Part shown: positions 3,737 through 63,956 of the stretch, piece after piece
Position numbering within the stretch: the first letter of the stretch is position 1
Layout: each line of letters starts with the position of its first letter
Program-made: the position numbers and the translations under genes
Notes under the pieces: model-generated
Databases searched by the model: none
The model's input: the letters and a program-made list of their open reading frames with translations, nothing else
Told to the model about the DNA's origin: nothing
DNA from: Pseudoalteromonas viridis
GTDB lineage: Bacteria; Pseudomonadota; Gammaproteobacteria; Enterobacterales; Alteromonadaceae
DNA: 64,000 nt
Assembly: GCF_017742995.1 (NCBI RefSeq)
Contig: NZ_CP072425.1
Span: 806,001 to 870,000 of the forward strand
Direction: 5' to 3'

Positions 3737-4657
3737 ATGGCAATGTATGTAGTGGGACACAAGATCCCAGACTCAGATTCAATTTGTGGTGCAATTGCAC
3801 TGGCTTACCTGAAGAACCAGATCGGTGAAGAAGCGATTCCAACGCGTTTGGGCGATGTTTCTCCCGAGACCCAGTTTATTCTGGAGCGCTTTGGCTTTGA
3901 AGCCCCGGAGCTCAAGCTTAGCTATGCCGGTGAAGAAGTCTATATCGTTGACCATACAGAGAAAACACAAGCGCCTGATGACATCGACGAAGCCACTGTT
4001 GTCGGAGTGGTTGACCACCACAAGCTTGGCGACCTGACTACCTCAACGCCGCTTGAGTGTTGGATCCGTCCGGTAGGGTGTAGCAATACCATCATCAAAA
4101 TGATGTACGATTTTTACGGTGTAGAAATCCCACAAGGGATTGCAGGCCTGATGATGTGTGCCATCCTGAGCGATACGGTGATCTTCAAATCACCAACTTG
4201 CACCACCGCAGACATTAAATGTGTAGAAGCGCTGGCTGAAATTGCAGGCATCGAAGACTTTAAAGCGCTGGGCATGGAAATGTTCAAAGTCAAATCCGCG
4301 GTTGAAGGCACACCGGCACGCGACCTGGTAATGCGTGACTTTAAAGACTTCAACATGAACGGCAACCTGGTTGGTATCGGCCAGCTGGAAGTGATCGACC
4401 TGTCTGTATTCGACGACATCAAAGCCGACTTGGAAGCCGACATTGCTAAGCTGAAAGAAGAAGGTGGCCGTCACTCAGTGTTGCTGCTGCTCACCGACAT
4501 CATGCAAGAAGGCTCTCAAATGCTGATCGCTTCTGACGACGAAAGCATTGTCGCCAAAGCCTATCAGGTTACCCCTGAAAATAGCCGAGTATGGCTGGAC
4601 GGCGTACTAAGCCGTAAAAAGCAGGTTGTTCCGCCACTGCAAGATGCATTCGCATAA
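3737..4657 (+). CDS. ppaC: Manganese-dependent inorganic pyrophosphatase (family II)
   Basis: Cytoplasmic enzyme hydrolysing pyrophosphate to two phosphates, which drives biosynthetic reactions forward. The 306-aa protein has the DHH-family layout: GHKIPDSDS at the N-terminus, VDHTE, the VDHHKLGD motif (about residue 92) and a C-terminal DHHA2 domain ending around SRKKQVVPPL, the substrate-binding region. The start at 3737 (M-A-M-Y-V-V-G-H) fits the usual family N-terminus and has GGAG about 8 bases upstream; longer readings from 3596 lack this. It ends against a bidirectional terminator. Confidence 0.93.
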   Translation: MAMYVVGHKIPDSDSICGAIALAYLKNQIGEEAIPTRLGDVSPETQFILERFGFEAPELKLSYAGEEVYIVDHTEKTQAPDDIDEATVVGVVDHHKLGDLTTSTPLECWIRPVGCSNTIIKMMYDFYGVEIPQGIAGLMMCAILSDTVIFKSPTCTTADIKCVEALAEIAGIEDFKALGMEMFKVKSAVEGTPARDLVMRDFKDFNMNGNLVGIGQLEVIDLSVFDDIKADLEADIAKLKEEGGRHSVLLLLTDIMQEGSQMLIASDDESIVAKAYQVTPENSRVWLDGVLSRKKQVVPPLQDAFA

Positions 4658-4677
4658 ACCTGGCTGATAAACCTCAG

Positions 4678-4707
4678 AAAAAGCCCTGCTCCTGTCAGGG
4701 CTTTTTT
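4678..4707. terminator. Bidirectional terminator between ppaC and a DMT exporter gene
   Basis: AAAAAGCCCTG and CAGGGCTTTTTT form a stem with a seven-base loop and have A and T tracts on both sides, so it can stop transcription from either of the two convergent genes. Confidence 0.85.
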
Positions 4708-4711
4708 GTTT

Positions 4712-5614
4712 TTAGCTACCCTGTAAAGCAGACGATGCATTCTCTTTCTTGTTATCACGTTTACCCTGATACTGGTAAACAAAAATGGCACACATGATGA
4801 TGCCCAGGCTAACCGGGAGCCGTGAGTCAAATACCTGATCGCTGATGAGATAAGATAATAGCACCCCCAAGGTTGGCACCAGATAATTACTGAATGAGGC
4901 AAAAGCCGGTCCTTTGCTCATGATCAGCTGCATAAACAAGATATACACGACCCCACCACAGAATACCCCGAGATAAACACTGGCTAGCACTGCTTCTGGT
5001 TTGAACTGTGCCACGTCCAGTGGCGAAAATAGCACAGCCAGAGGCAGTAACTGCACAGCAGAAATCGCAATCACATCACGGGCCACAACCACAGGGTGCA
5101 GATGTGCAAGCTTTCTGACCAGGATTAAACTCAGGGCAAAGCTCAGCGCCGCAATAAAAATTGCCGCAGCGCCCACAAATTGAGAGGTCGATTGCGTTTG
5201 CAGCTGGGGTAAAAATAAATACAACAAGCCGGCAAATCCAATCAGGCCACACACAACCCCTTTAGCGCTGAACTCACTGTCTTTGAGCAATAAGGGGGCA
5301 AGTAAGATCGTCAGCAGAGGATTCATGCCCGTAATGACCGCGGCATGTGCAGCTGCCGTTGTTTGCTGCCCCCAGGCCACGAGCAGAAATGGTAAAGTGG
5401 CTTCCAGCAAGCCAATGACAAACAACAAACGCCAGTGTCCGGGTTCACGCTTTAGACCCAGAAAATAACAGGCAACAATCAGTACCAGCGCACCGATACC
5501 AGCGCGCAACGCAGCTATCCACAGTGCCGGGATACTCTCCAGCGCAATGGCGTTAAAGATATACTGGGATCCCCATAGCAATCCGCACGCTATCAACATC
5601 ATTATAGACTTCAT
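4712..5614 (-). CDS. DMT-superfamily permease with two EamA domains
   Basis: A 300-aa inner-membrane protein with about ten transmembrane helices in two EamA repeats, the layout of drug/metabolite exporters. The N-terminal LLWGSQYIFNAIALE and the second-half GPAFASFSNYLVPTLGVLLS segments are typical. The substrate is unknown. The ATG at 5614 is preferred over the adjacent TTG because AAAGGAG lies six bases before it. The tail is charged (GKRDNKKE). It is 45 bases downstream of the oxidoreductase gene on the same strand, so the two may be cotranscribed. Confidence 0.85.
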   Translation of the reverse strand: MKSIMMLIACGLLWGSQYIFNAIALESIPALWIAALRAGIGALVLIVACYFLGLKREPGHWRLLFVIGLLEATLPFLLVAWGQQTTAAAHAAVITGMNPLLTILLAPLLLKDSEFSAKGVVCGLIGFAGLLYLFLPQLQTQSTSQFVGAAAIFIAALSFALSLILVRKLAHLHPVVVARDVIAISAVQLLPLAVLFSPLDVAQFKPEAVLASVYLGVFCGGVVYILFMQLIMSKGPAFASFSNYLVPTLGVLLSYLISDQVFDSRLPVSLGIIMCAIFVYQYQGKRDNKKENASSALQGS

Positions 5615-9405: not shown

Positions 9406-10605
9406 ATGAGCCAAACACACAAGCGTATTCTTCTGGGGATCAGCGGTGGGATCGCCGCCTATAAATGTGCCGAACTGGTACGACGGTTAAAAGAGCAACA
9501 TTGTGAAGTCAAAGTGGTGATGACTGAATCGGCTAAGCAGTTTATTACCCCATTGACCATGCAGGCAGTATCGGGCGAGCCCGTTGCTGACTCTCTGCTC
9601 GACCCGGCTGCCGAAGCCGCCATGGGCCATATCGAGCTGGCAAAGTGGGCTGATCTGGTTTTAGTGGCTCCGGCCAGTAGCAATATCATCGCCAAGATGG
9701 CCGCCGGTATTGCCGATGATCTACTTACTACCTTATTGCTGGCAACGCCGGCCAAAGTGGCCATAGCGCCAGCCATGAATCAGCAAATGTATGCGCATCC
9801 GGCAACCCAGGCTAACCTCAGCACACTGGCAAACCGCAAAGTGGCAGTCTGGGGACCCGGTCAGGGCGAGCAGGCTTGTGGCGATGTGGGCAAAGGCCGC
9901 ATGTTGGAGCCGCATGAGCTGGTCGCATTGGCACTGGGTGCACTGACACCCGAAGCCCCGCTATTGGCTGGTAAAACCGTGACTATCAGCGCAGGCCCCA
10001 CGCGCGAAGCACTCGATCCGGTGCGCTATATCAGTAACCACAGCTCAGGTAAAATGGGTTACGCGCTGGCAGAAGCTGCGCTTGCACTGGGCGCTCATGT
10101 TCACCTTATCTCCGGCCCGGTCGCACTCACACCACCACCAGGTTGTGAAGTACATGCGGTGAGCAGTGCGCTCGATATGCATCAGGCGGCCATGAAATTA
10201 GCGCCTACTTCAGATGTTTTCATAGGCTGTGCGGCCGTGGCGGATTACCGCGCCGCAGACATCGCCGAACAAAAAATCAAAAAACAGGGCGAGGAGATGA
10301 CCCTGACGCTGGTGAAAAACCCGGATATCATCGCTGATGTTGCCGCGCTGACCGCGCAGCGCCCTTATACAGTGGGGTTTGCCGCTGAAACCCAGGATGT
10401 CGCGCAATATGCGCAAGGCAAATTGAAAAACAAAGGGTTAGATATGATCTGTGCTAACGATGTCAGTCAGGCCGGAATAGGCTTTAATGCCAATGATAAC
10501 GCGCTGACCCTGTTTTGGGGCAATGCGCAACAATCTTTACCCCTGGCAAGCAAGTCAGAGTTAGCGCTTACTGTCGTCAAAGCAATTGCCGGTAAACTTA
10601 ATTAA
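9406..10605 (+). CDS. coaBC: Bifunctional phosphopantothenoylcysteine decarboxylase/phosphopantothenate-cysteine ligase
   Basis: Catalyses two steps of coenzyme A synthesis: ligation of cysteine to phosphopantothenate and decarboxylation to phosphopantetheine. The N-terminal FMN-binding CoaC half (about residues 1-185) shows [11 protein letters not shown], the [11 protein letters not shown] segment with the active histidine, PAMNQQMY and a cysteine in [12 protein letters not shown]. The CoaB half shows [19 protein letters not shown] and [16 protein letters not shown]. The ATG at 9406 is chosen because AGGGG lies upstream and M-S-Q-T-H-K-R fits the family; an in-frame TTG at 9391 is less likely. 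Length 399 aa is normal. Confidence 0.95.
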
Positions 10606-58522: not shown

Positions 58523-58548
58523 AAAAACCCGGCCAAAGCCGGGTTTTT
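58523..58548 (-). terminator. groEL terminator, beyond the intron
   Basis: CCCGGC-CAAA-GCCGGG flanked by A5 and T5 is a strong terminator on either strand. On the minus strand it lies 29 bases past the intron end, where the groEL terminator would be if the intron were removed. Confidence 0.88.
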
Positions 58549-58617
58549 CAAAGCGTTAAGTGCTTAGGGGGTTGATGTCGGGTAAGGAGCAGCCATTGCT
58601 GGCTACCCCTCCCCTAA

Positions 58618-58651
58618 GAACCGTACGTGCGAGTTTCCCCGCATACGGCTC
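58618..58651 (-). ncRNA. Group II intron domain V
   Basis: A 34-base hairpin beginning GAGCCGTATGCG and ending GCACGTACGGTTC, with a GGAAAC-type tetraloop region. It is the catalytic core helix of group II introns. Domain VI follows (58577-58614) with the probable branch-point A in CTTACCCGAC. Confidence 0.92.
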
Positions 58652-58690
58652 AAGCCTTTATAAGTCAGTACCTGAGTACAGACCAGCGAC

Positions 58691-59113
58691 TTACTTCCTA
58701 TCAATTACATCAATGTACTCAAATGCTTCATGGTCTAATTTGGTCTTCCCGTAAAGGTCTTTCCTCATGGCAACTACAATGTTACCTACCGCTTTTTTAC
58801 CTTTCACAGGATCTGGTGTACCTCCCTCTCTTACCAAAGAAACCATATGATTGATCGCTTCGATAACTTCATCAGAACAGTAAAGCCACGCTTTGTATTG
58901 TTCTTCAAAGAATTCTCTCTTAGTTTTAGAGTTTGCGGTCTGACCAACAAATCCTTGAAGTTTAACAAGTAGCTTAGAATACTGCTCTTCCTTATGCTTC
59001 AGAGCAGCTTCGCCTTTCTTCGATTCTACAGCGTAGTAGTATGTTAACGCTGAACCGAGTATCAAGGTGAAGACTGGTACTAAAGTTTTAATGATTACAG
59101 TTACATACTCCAT
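58691..59113 (-). CDS. Intron passenger: membrane-anchored coiled-coil protein
   Basis: A 140-aa protein: one N-terminal transmembrane helix (about residues 7-27), a charged coiled-coil stretch (AALKHKEEQYSKLLVKLQGF) and a helical domain (YKAWLYCSDEVIEAINHMVSLV...VGNIVVAMRKDLYG). AAGGAAGG just before the ATG is a good ribosome binding site, so it looks like a real gene. It lies 59 bases after the maturase stop and 39 bases before domain V, therefore inside intron domain IV. Not related to intron proteins. Function unknown; similar short membrane proteins occur in variable islands. Confidence 0.78.
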   Translation of the reverse strand: MEYVTVIIKTLVPVFTLILGSALTYYYAVESKKGEAALKHKEEQYSKLLVKLQGFVGQTANSKTKREFFEEQYKAWLYCSDEVIEAINHMVSLVREGGTPDPVKGKKAVGNIVVAMRKDLYGKTKLDHEAFEYIDVIDRK

Positions 59114-59172
59114 TGACCTTCCTTACTGATAACTTGAATTGCCAAACAACTACCAAACAATATCAAATATAA

Positions 59173-60828
59173 TCAACCACTATGCAATTGCCTATGACAA
59201 TTGGGATGCAACAACACTAAATTACTTAGCTCATCCGAACCGCCTTTTACCTTTTCCACAATATGATGGATATTCCATCCTGTTTCTTTGGTAATATTCT
59301 GGCGGCACAGTGGACAGCGATGCTGCTGCCTGAGCCATAGCGTTAGCACTTTACGTTGACCTTGCATTGAATCACGCCAAGCTCGCTCAAGGCGCTGCTC
59401 GAAATATGTTTCAAATGCTAAGTCATACGGATTAGCGTCCGCTTTGATCTTAGTGTGTCGCTTTATCACGGTGTCATTGGTGTATATCAATCGCTTATCA
59501 AAACCGTCGATTGTTATACCGGAAAATGTCCAGTTGCGTTTGCCCACAGATTTAAAGTACTTAGACTTAATCCAGCGCTTACGCCTGTTGGCATGACGCC
59601 TTCGACACCATTGCCACAACATCTTCCAAACCCGATAGTCCACATAATTAAAGGTTTCTTTCGCAACCACATGTCGATGATAGTTAGCCCAACCCCTTAA
59701 CACCGGATTGAGTTGTGCTATCAACATACTGGCAGTCACTGTTTTGTTACCCGTCACTATGCTTTTCACTTTATGAAGCAAATTACGCAAGTTCTTTCGG
59801 CTTGGCTTAATTAAAAGCTTACCTTGGTACTTTCGTAAGTTTTGCCCCAAGAAGTCAAACCCGTCTTCTATATGCGTGATCACCGTTTTTTCCGGCGATA
59901 ACTGTAACCCTCGTTCAGCCATAAAGGCTGTTACGAGAGGTTTAACTTCATCTTCTAGAAGCTCTTTCGAGATCCCAGTAATGATGAAGTCATCAGCGTA
60001 TCGCACGAAGTTGACCTTGGTCTTGTAGCTGGCTTTGGTATTTTTCTTCCCAAAATGAGATTCAAGCAACCCTTCCAGCCCATCAAGTGCCAAATTAGCC
60101 AACACCGGAGAGATAATCCCTCCTTGTGGTGTGCCCGCTTCCGTCGGATTTAATTTACCGGATTCCATAAACCCCGCTTTTAGCCATTTTCTGAGTACTT
60201 GTTTATCCAATGGGACATTGGCAAGTAGCCAGTCATGACTGATGTTATCGAAACACCCTTTAATATCCCCTTCTAACACCCATTTAGCAGAATGCTTGCG
60301 ACTGAGATTCACAAAACATTGCTCAATCGCATCTGCTGTAGAGCGCATCGGGCGAAAGCCATAGCTATTCCTATCTGCGGTGGTTTCCGATACAGGCTCT
60401 AGTGCCAGCAGGTATAACGCCTGCATGGCTCTGTCGAGCATGGTCGGTATCCCAAGCGGTCGACGCTTGCCGTTCGCTTTTGGAATATAAACCCGCCTCA
60501 ACGGTTTGGGCTTATAGCCCTTACGCGTTAATCGAAATAGCGCCAGCCATTTACTTTCAGGTGTACTCCATAACTCCCCATCGACACCGGCAGTCCGTTT
60601 GCCTCGATTTTCAGTTACCCGTTTAACCGCCAAAGCCTTGGCAGAAAACGAGCGCACCAACATGCGTTGCAGAGCTTTCACCTTGCGCCACTGTTGTTGC
60701 TTTGTCGCCTTTGCGATCCGTACTTGTAGCCCTCTCACCTTTTGCTCAATTGAATACCAATCAATGGTATGCCAGCTGTGCGCCTGATGGGAGAACGCAG
60801 GTACATGGAACATACATTCCGCACTCAT
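59173..60828 (-). CDS. ltrA: Group II intron reverse transcriptase/maturase with HNH endonuclease
   Basis: A 551-aa intron-encoded protein. Reverse transcriptase blocks at about 100-330: [49 protein letters not shown] and the catalytic VRYADDF. A maturase domain X follows ([15 protein letters not shown]), then a C-terminal HNH nuclease with [29 protein letters not shown] (key parts). It splices the intron and copies it into new targets. AAAGGAG nine bases before the ATG. All key residues are intact, so the intron is probably active. Confidence 0.96.
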
Positions 60829-61098
60829 CTTGCTTTTCTCCTTTAACTAAAAAGTGTCAGGAAATCAGCAATTCACTTCCCTTGCGGGAAGCAAAATGCT
60901 TCCCGACAAGTTCAGTGATTGACGGCTTTACACGTCTTCACACAATTAAAGACCAGTTGAAAGTCTGCACTGTTTCCAGTTAGGGCAAAGTTTGAACCCC
61001 TATCCAACCCATTACAGATTGGCATTCGCTTTTTTCAACCTCCTGTATCCACTTAATCATCAGCTCACCTTGCGGCTCACCTGCCCGAGCCTTAAGCT

Positions 61099-61203
61099 AT
61101 GTAGGGCGATTAATTGGACTTACCGAGTTCCATTGTAATTACAAGAACAACTTAGGCTCTGTCTGTCCACCGGTGACTCAACGACGACGTATTTCCAGAT
61201 GTA
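61099..61203 (-). other. Candidate exon-binding sites of the intron
   Basis: TACATC at 61203-61198 is perfectly complementary to the last six bases of the groEL exon, GATGTA (IBS1). GTCGTC at 61188-61183 can pair with GGCGGC just upstream (IBS2) using two G-U pairs. TACAT at 61103-61099 is an alternative IBS1 partner lying in the usual order after the EBS2 candidate. Which one is the true EBS1 needs a structure model. Confidence 0.45.
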
Positions 61204-61730
61204 AAAGAAATAGCCAGTCACATACCTTTTGGTTTGAGCGTATCAGCAATATTTCGCTCATTGCGGTTGACGGTGTTTATCAACAGTTCACATACGTTAG
61301 CCCTATTGCCCAGCCTAGCCTTCAGCCCGTGCATTGCTCACAGACTATGCCATCCTCACGGATTAAGGCATTGTTTTCACAGAAGTACATTGTCAGAAAG
61401 CTTCACACACATCCGTTACCAGATATGCATTATTCCTAGGCTACTGTTAGTCGCATAACAGGTCTCACTACCAAATAATATTGGTGAGAAAATAATTACA
61501 ACAGCTTACGTCTATAGAACGCTCGCAGTCAGAACTAAAATCAAAATTGTGAAACCATCGCCAAAGCGATGACCAACGTGACAATACGGTTATCAATAAC
61601 ACAATATACAAACACGCCTAAAAAGGACTTACTAAGATATTGAGAGAGTGATAACGCTATGAGCCTGAAACAAACTCAACGTATTGCTTAATCATTAGTG
61701 TGGCTTTCACCCACTAAGGAAAGAATGGAA

Positions 61731-61859
61731 TTAGCAACAAGGTTGCTAAATAAAGCCAATCCAGATATAAATTGACTGAAAAGTTCCAATCGTTGAACGA
61801 TTGCGCAGTGCATTCACTTAGTGAATGTTCTGGCATCGTTACACATTTCGATGCCAGAA
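61731..61859 (-). repeat. Cluster of four perfect hairpins in intron domain I
   Basis: Four separate inverted repeats follow one another: TTAGCAAC/GTTGCTAA (61731-61749), CAATCGTT/AACGATTG (61787-61803), CATTCAC/GTGAATG (61811-61827) and an 11-base stem TTCTGGCATCG/CGATGCCAGAA (61828-61859). They are probably peripheral stems of domain I and may explain its length. Confidence 0.7.
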
Positions 61860-61957
61860 TACTGACTACTATTTTTGCAGGAAGGTGGAAGCGAGTAAGT
61901 TAATACTCGCTTACGGTGTAGCCTGCTAGGTTAGCGACCTATACGACTCTCGTCGCA

Positions 61958-63956
<1,999 letters not shown>

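Follow-up and report, generated by a model that had tools for sequence, protein, structure and literature searches.

The locus studied here raises the question of how a group II intron can sit inside the stop codon of groEL, in an essential operon, and what it carries there. It lies in a 64,000-nucleotide (nt) stretch of the Pseudoalteromonas viridis chromosome (NZ_CP072425.1, positions 806,001 to 870,000), which we call the window. We conclude that the intron very probably belongs to a mobile group II intron lineage that is specialized for the groEL stop codon and serves as a carrier of exchangeable small genes. This exchangeable second gene, missed by the initial annotation of this DNA, is rated by us as a more novel feature than the position at the groEL stop. 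The parts of the locus are as follows.

61958 to 63607, minus strand: groEL, an open reading frame (ORF) with the Pfam domain Cpn60_TCP1, its final codon TA/G cut by the intron and its first exon ending at 61959.
58577 to 61958, minus strand: the group II intron, 3,382 nt, GTGCG...CCCGAC, defined from the sequence, Rfam matches and empty sites in relatives.
61959 to 61964, minus strand: intron-binding site 1 (IBS1, GATGTA) at the end of exon 1, complementary to exon-binding site 1 (EBS1).
61463 to 61950, minus strand: a large 5′ insertion of ~490 nt between the 5′ end and domain I, variable among introns, recognized by the distance to the RF02012 match and by low identity to the related intron L171 (L numbers are our handles for loci).
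61319 to 61462, minus strand: part of domain I (Rfam RF02012, 104 bits, E value 8.5e-21).
61198 to 61203, minus strand: EBS1 (TACATC), complementary to IBS1.
59173 to 60828, minus strand: the intron-encoded protein, a reverse transcriptase (RT)/maturase/HNH endonuclease of 551 amino acids (aa) with RVT_N, RVT_1, GIIM and HNH domains and the YADD motif present.
58577 to 58653, minus strand: domains V and VI (Rfam RF00029, 68 bits against a cutoff of 40, E value 3e-11).
58523 to 58576, minus strand: the 3′ exon from ATCAACC, with the groEL terminator, read from the sequence and from the matching flank in the empty site of L246.

The initial annotation had proposed that a group II intron splits the groEL stop codon, and the proposal proved exact to the base. 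The 3′ end of groEL reads ...GGCGGCATGATGTA, the intron opens with GTGCGACGAG at 61958 and closes with CCCGAC at 58577, and the bases that follow are ATCAACCCCC, which gives the junctions TA/GTGCG...CCCGAC/ATC. The intron thus has a 5′ end of the GUGYG type and the conserved 3′ end, both in line with exact empty sites. The Rfam domains agree, both matches being well above cutoff: the RF00029 match stops exactly at the proposed 3′ splice site, 58577, the domain V core GAGCCGT is invariant in all 24 aligned introns, and the RF02012 match lies 496 nt from 61958. The maturase, which had been described as intact, is indeed so, and its ORF is flanked by the matches to domains I and V, as expected of domain IV; it is the sole full-length copy of the intron protein in the 5.55-Mb genome. 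The reading that exon joining yields TAA, and that unspliced RNA stops at TAG, holds from the sequence on both counts. The groEL terminator, predicted to come close to the gene once the exons are joined, was seen on inspection as a hairpin with a T run (CCCGGC TTTG GCCGGG TTTTT, 58523 to 58548); a simple terminator scan did not list it, probably because A/T flanks lengthen the stem.

A comparison with intron-less groEL ends in related strains had been suggested, and such ends are common. All 60 Pseudoalteromonas genomes surveyed matched groEL and 30 of the loci were read, of which 23 are uninterrupted, five carry an intron and two were unmatched by the pattern. In the closest empty site, L246, whose groEL stretch is 96% identical, the sequence runs TA/ATCAGCCCCTTAAGCACTTAACGCTTTGAAAAACCCGGC against ATCAACCCCCTAAGCACTTAACGCTTTGAAAAACCCGGC in the window, with nearly identical flanks. 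A class-wide search with one exact, and strict, junction pattern matched the window alone (1 of 369). EBS1 can pair with IBS1 in the exon, and 45 of the 48 lineage introns have the EBS1 motif. Two of the three ectopic introns (L173, L179 and L180) stand behind the identical 14-nt GGCGGCATGATGTA and the third behind GGCGTCAAGAAGTA, so the target seems to be recognized by sequence.

To place the intron among its relatives, GTDB genomes were scanned with an alignment of 31 intron proteins and the best 80 of 591 relatives were kept. Upstream groEL was found in 17 of these 80, exactly the 17 closest (67–88% identity), and in none of the stretches around the remaining 63 (54–63% identity). The hosts of the 17 are Pseudoalteromonas, Colwellia, a Pseudomonadales metagenome-assembled genome, Marinobacterium, Oceanobacter, Halomonas, Glaciecola, Nitrincola, Alcanivorax, Photobacterium and Vibrio. 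Full-length close copies were found in 7 of the 108 genomes searched from the window's genus, in 14 of 295 sampled from its family (its own genus partly included) and in 2 of 117 Shewanella genomes; in Vibrio, 13 of 227 genomes have a copy that spans the protein (one internal stop in two of them), and groEL precedes all 13 loci. After deduplication we had 48 full-length introns, comprising the window's and relatives at 65–97% identity, of which 45 occupy the groEL stop and three (the ectopic copies) lie elsewhere. The initial annotation's idea of a lineage specialized for this site holds, and the lineage is broader than one chromosome. A FastTree phylogeny of 150 proteins places 44 groEL copies, the three ectopic ones, L051 and L052 in one set of 49 with a support of 99. 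A single ancestral specialization for the groEL stop, followed by later losses, would be the simplest reading of this tree.

What sets these introns apart is a slot between the maturase gene and domain V, which in the window comprises two features.

58691 to 59113, minus strand: the cargo gene, for a 140-aa helical protein with a long N-terminal helix, supported by its ORF, homologues and a structure model.
58652 to 58692, minus strand: a hairpin that closes the slot directly before domain V, supported by covariation in 24 introns.

Of the 48 lineage introns, 46 have such a slot, with 200 nt or more separating the maturase stop from domain V; L043 and L049 are the exceptions. Among the 63 outside relatives from the GTDB scan, the maturase stop lies at most 75 nt from domain V in 61, with L084 and L086 as exceptions. 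Sense ORFs of at least 70 aa are present in 32 of the 46 slots, compared with four in antisense and a mean of 2.2 (maximum 5) in shuffled slots. The closing hairpin is paired in 93.4% of cells, against 84.3% when shuffled and at most 55.5% when slid, and 29 cells are changed on both sides against 8.3 in shuffles. Two-sided changes affect 5 of its 11 pairs, a number reached by 31 of 500 shuffles, and fall on five of the seven inner-helix pairs and none of the four outer pairs.

Several further observations concern the slot. The two Piscinibacter exceptions outside the groEL lineage, L084 and L086, have similar small ORFs behind the maturase and ahead of domain V (around 9623 to 9886), perhaps an independently arisen slot. 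The first ~130 nt of the slots of L035 and L178 are 81% identical and the ORFs behind them unlike, as if the upstream region had been reused; the L035 slot start contains the palindrome ATACAGTACTGTAT. Palindromes resembling LexA boxes also occur in the slots of L040, L194/L195 and L240, too few to judge. As a general feature, LexA-type boxes, CTGT(N8)ACAG (four against 0.3 in shuffles), were dropped, as one is the closing hairpin and two come from near-duplicate loci.

The contents of the slots are diverse. From 57 slots, relics included, 56 cargo ORFs were called, which sort into nine families of two to nine members and 17 singletons without detectable likeness. Domain scans covered 48 of these ORFs, eight short or duplicate ones being left out, and Pfam found DUF2188 in nine, lambda ea8.5 in five, DUF1508 in four, NarE in one (below cutoff) and two marginal others. 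All nine DUF2188 ORFs match PDC-S16, a phage-defense candidate of PADLOC, with best E values from 8e-33 to 3.4e-41, and no PADLOC family matched the other 39, the window's cargo included. Cargo ORFs also matched 13 PHROG families at an E value of 0.01. Another family comprises eight small proteins that are hydrophobic toward the C terminus and have diverged too far for selection to be estimated, and two Shewanella slots have ORFs that look alike by eye. The ratio of nonsynonymous to synonymous substitution rates (dN/dS) was 0.09–0.24 in 13 of 36 DUF2188 pairs, the other pairs being saturated at synonymous sites, and 0.25–0.36 in three ea8.5-like pairs. These values show the signature of purifying selection on several cargo families.

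Some slots without a called ORF have content of another kind. An element of ~300 nt is common to L036 (9627–9960), the first intron of L232 (L232a, 4648–4990) and part of L182 (4990–5345); over these three sequences, 69 predicted pairs include 16 with two-sided changes, with a weak covariation term, and the element is possibly a structured RNA. A second, different element is shared by L044 (9627–9990), L238 (4630–4985) and part of L240 (4636–5000). Neither is in Rfam: scans of seven loci with ORF-poor slots returned the intron's own domains only, and two slots scanned at an E value of 1 gave no match at all. A plasmid search with the L232 and L238 copies also gave no match.

The window's own cargo gene has a purine-rich AAGGAAGG ahead of its ATG, and the hairpin and then domain V behind it. 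Its product has 338 homologues at an E value of 0.001, and the same family occupies the slot of L042 (67% identical). Between these two copies the proportion of synonymous differences (pS) is 0.91 and that of nonsynonymous differences (pN) 0.18, values which indicate that the gene is under purifying selection. AlphaFold models the protein as helices (predicted local distance difference test score, pLDDT, 84.8), and its long N-terminal helix is probably a membrane anchor; no PDB fold matched at an E value of 0.001, and there was no convincing sequence match (best E value 0.24). A search of 223 Vibrio genomes gave one weak match only, and 295 genomes of the order gave the window's own copy and one at 34%. 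We rejected a phage or plasmid origin for this gene, as there was no match in phage records, no confirmed IMG/VR relative, and plasmid matches only in 15 Leptospira records (~51–53% identity, outside introns). On the Leptospira plasmid lcp2 (L294), a homologue at 3947–4369 lies just ahead of an annotated AbrB/MazE-mazF pair.

We then compared cargo between closely related introns. The maturases of the window and L171 are 97% identical, and along 60-column stretches of DNA the identity is 90–100% within the maturase gene, 15–48% from about the maturase stop to the hairpin, and 98% in the stretch right behind it. Among the 32 introns with assigned cargo, the cargo differs in all seven pairs whose maturases are at least 95% identical. 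Over all 496 pairs, 49 share a cargo family, at 0–17% per identity bin with no clear trend; L034, L042, L048 and L050 were left out of this comparison, as their rows stood under duplicate ids. On the maturase tree, the nine DUF2188 cargos amount to nine changes, one each. Read at the level of sequence, these comparisons show fast exchange of cargo in the lineage.

Some loci suggest how such exchange could happen. A single groEL in L232 holds a tandem pair of complete introns, two proteins and two domains V being present; in L178 another intron start and another domain I follow the first intron, with no second protein of the family in the stretch. In L180 two cargos flank a fragment of the maturase 3′ end (159 nt, 80% identical), a scar of the kind expected if two introns recombine through shared flanks. 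The 5′ insertion (61463 to 61950) also differs strongly between the window and L171 despite their near-identical maturases, so it may be exchanged as well. Separately, in L190, L192, L193, L194, L195, L198 and L199 an intact groEL end has the 3′ part of such an intron downstream of it, comprising the last maturase codons, slot, hairpin and domain V. Four of these relics (L190, L192, L198 and L199) retain an ORF of the hydrophobic-tail family, shortened in L190 and L192, and in L198 the bases behind the relic repeat those behind groEL.

The junctions also bear on how groEL tolerates the intron. The 3′ exon begins with A in all 46 introns that have no second intron behind them (42 matched by script; L235, L238, L240 and L242 read by eye from the output), which gives TAA or TGA on splicing of the groEL copies; in the two tandem copies the next base is the G of the following intron. 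The first base of the intron is normally near-invariant in group II introns. Here, exons ending in TA (n = 43: 42 of the 48 full-length introns, ectopic ones included, plus the truncated L243, with L232b unclassed) are followed by G in 42 cases and A in one, and the five ending in TG are all followed by A. This association has a Fisher p of 3.5e-6, uncorrected for kinship, and on the tree first base and stop type each take four changes. A G after TG would turn TGA into TGG, so that translation would run into the intron. The A behind TG hints that selection maintains a stop codon in the unspliced groEL message, although the signal is statistically not secured against kinship.

Together, these results suggest the following course of events. 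The intron RNA would recognize the conserved groEL end ...GGCGGCATGATGTA through EBS1–IBS1 pairing, and the RT/HNH protein would copy the intron in by retrohoming. As the first intron base completes the stop codon, and splicing would restore TAA, GroEL should be correct whether its message is spliced or not. A slot would have evolved behind the maturase gene, closed by the hairpin before domain V, in which small genes and possibly RNA elements ride. Cargo would be swapped through the conserved flanks, the maturase 3′ end on the left and the hairpin with domains V–VI on the right, probably when one groEL comes to hold two introns, as in the tandem copies. Homing and DNA transfer between bacteria would spread the intron. 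Cargo may be expressed with the groESL transcript and perhaps also from promoters of its own, and phage defense is one candidate role for it in the cell. The operon begins with one further gene, and its order on the minus strand, from the sequence and the list of ORFs, is groES, groEL, intron.

63669 to 63956, minus strand: an ORF of 95 aa, the first gene of the operon, which we take to be groES from its own sequence and its position ahead of groEL.

We put forward only tentatively, and at somewhat less than even confidence, the wider proposal that the lineage moves fast-turning accessory genes, among them candidate anti-phage genes and perhaps structured RNAs, by way of a near-universal and cost-free dock at the groEL stop, exchanging cargo when introns share a groEL.

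A number of points weigh against the account of a specialized, cargo-exchanging lineage. L043 and L049 are without cargo, which makes cargo dispensable for the intron, and 9 of the 46 slots are without a sense ORF of 50 aa. Three of the seven near-identical pairs involve a singleton ORF, where "different" means no detectable likeness, and recombination through the flanks would explain exchange, not first capture. L051 and L052 belong to the supported set though they have neither groEL nor slot. As this set also holds the ectopic copies, strict monophyly of the groEL copies does not follow from it, and the groEL label changes five times within it, at least three of them forced by supported branches. 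For the first base, four independent pairs gave three agreements and one without difference (sign test p 0.25), too few pairs. The GTDB scan covered the best 80 of 591 relatives and the other searches were samples, so the counts are not exhaustive. Finally, splicing, retrohoming, co-transcription, exchange by recombination of co-resident introns, host benefit and cargo function are all deduced from DNA sequence.

The two members without slot content and the slots without a sense ORF of 50 aa would also suit an ordinary Azotobacter-type groEL-stop intron whose second ORF is a meaningless passenger, there by chance or in decay. We nevertheless consider this improbable, given purifying selection on comparable cargo families, the 32 slots that have a sense ORF of 70 aa or more where 2.2 would be expected, the 338 homologues of the window's cargo, and the presence of a slot in nearly all members (46 of 48) but few outside relatives (2 of 63). 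The second ORFs could instead be co-factors of the intron's own splicing or mobility. That the called ORFs lie inside the intron in sense orientation speaks for such helpers, but the nine multi-member families and 17 singletons show no detectable likeness, some slots share other elements in place of an ORF, some members have no cargo, and the 140-aa protein has homologues outside introns, as on a Leptospira plasmid, all of which makes the idea very improbable.

Small, unrelated, swappable genes in gammaproteobacteria resemble integron cassette arrays, and on that likeness an integrase might have put gene cassettes into the intron. The attC core motifs in the 57 slots, however, are at the level of shuffled sequence (GTTRRRY 33 against 36.7, RYYYAAC 23 against 20.7); the last stop lies 33–61 nt from domain V in 32 of 47 ORF-bearing slots, which leaves little room for attC; and the hairpin that closes the slot shows covariation and is part of the intron. 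As the slots have no enrichment of attC core motifs, by counts of motifs, not of whole attC structures, we rejected integron cassettes and give this origin hardly any credence. A further reading, compatible with the carrier lineage that we favor, holds that most cargos protect the host from phages and that the intron spreads by this benefit. It draws on the 9 of 48 scanned ORFs, all DUF2188, that match PDC-S16 and on the 13 PHROG families, but PDC-S16 is a candidate only, no paper naming it was found in our literature search, and the 39 other scanned ORFs have no PADLOC family; as an account of most cargo, defense is possible but rather unlikely.

If the carrier lineage is borne out, it would be a new kind of accessory-gene vehicle, a source of defense candidates and a natural model for domain IV payloads. 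Ferat and colleagues and Adamidi and colleagues, both in 2003, and Michel and colleagues in 2007 are said to have described a group II intron at the end of groEL in Azotobacter. The window's intron fits this type by its position at the groEL stop and its large 5′ insertion. PMC4465626 places the Azotobacter intron near the groEL 3′ end in two species and notes that the copy in A. chroococcum does not sit exactly in the stop codon. Besides the location at this end, a large 5′ insertion and a reverse-transcriptase intron protein are common to both. The lineage described here spans many genera and has a first base matched to the stop type and an exchangeable second gene. In a literature search made mostly at title level, no title on cargo genes in natural groEL introns was found, and a mention in Ferat 2003, Adamidi 2003 or Michel 2007 is possible.

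A subset of CL1 (IIB1) introns has a 5′ insertion of hundreds of nucleotides, according to PMC4028801. The window's insertion fits this subset by description, and ~490 nt before domain I, the ends GTGCGAC...CCCGAC and an HNH-bearing protein would be points of likeness to it; in 61 of 63 other relatives of the window's protein, the gene (almost) directly abuts domain V. Bacterial group II introns mostly sit outside housekeeping genes, apart from some in cyanobacteria and in the CL and ML lineages (PMC4424553), and the groEL-stop lineage inhabits an essential operon at no apparent cost while carrying genes. LAGLIDADG proteins are an alternative to RT ORFs in group II introns (PMC4424553), and introns that encode them resemble ours in the modular gain of foreign protein genes; there (PMC13190283 and PMC4424553) a mobility endonuclease replaces the RT, whereas here diverse genes stand beside an intact RT. 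Targetrons with cargo (PMC3898094 and PMC8524655) likewise bring a foreign gene to a chosen site by a group II intron, but they are engineered, and the groEL-stop cargo introns are apparently natural and recurrent. Integron cassettes share the pool of small interchangeable genes, and differ in that the slots have no attC enrichment. We accordingly regard the intron itself as belonging to a known kind, and count the lineage with cargo as a new form of it.

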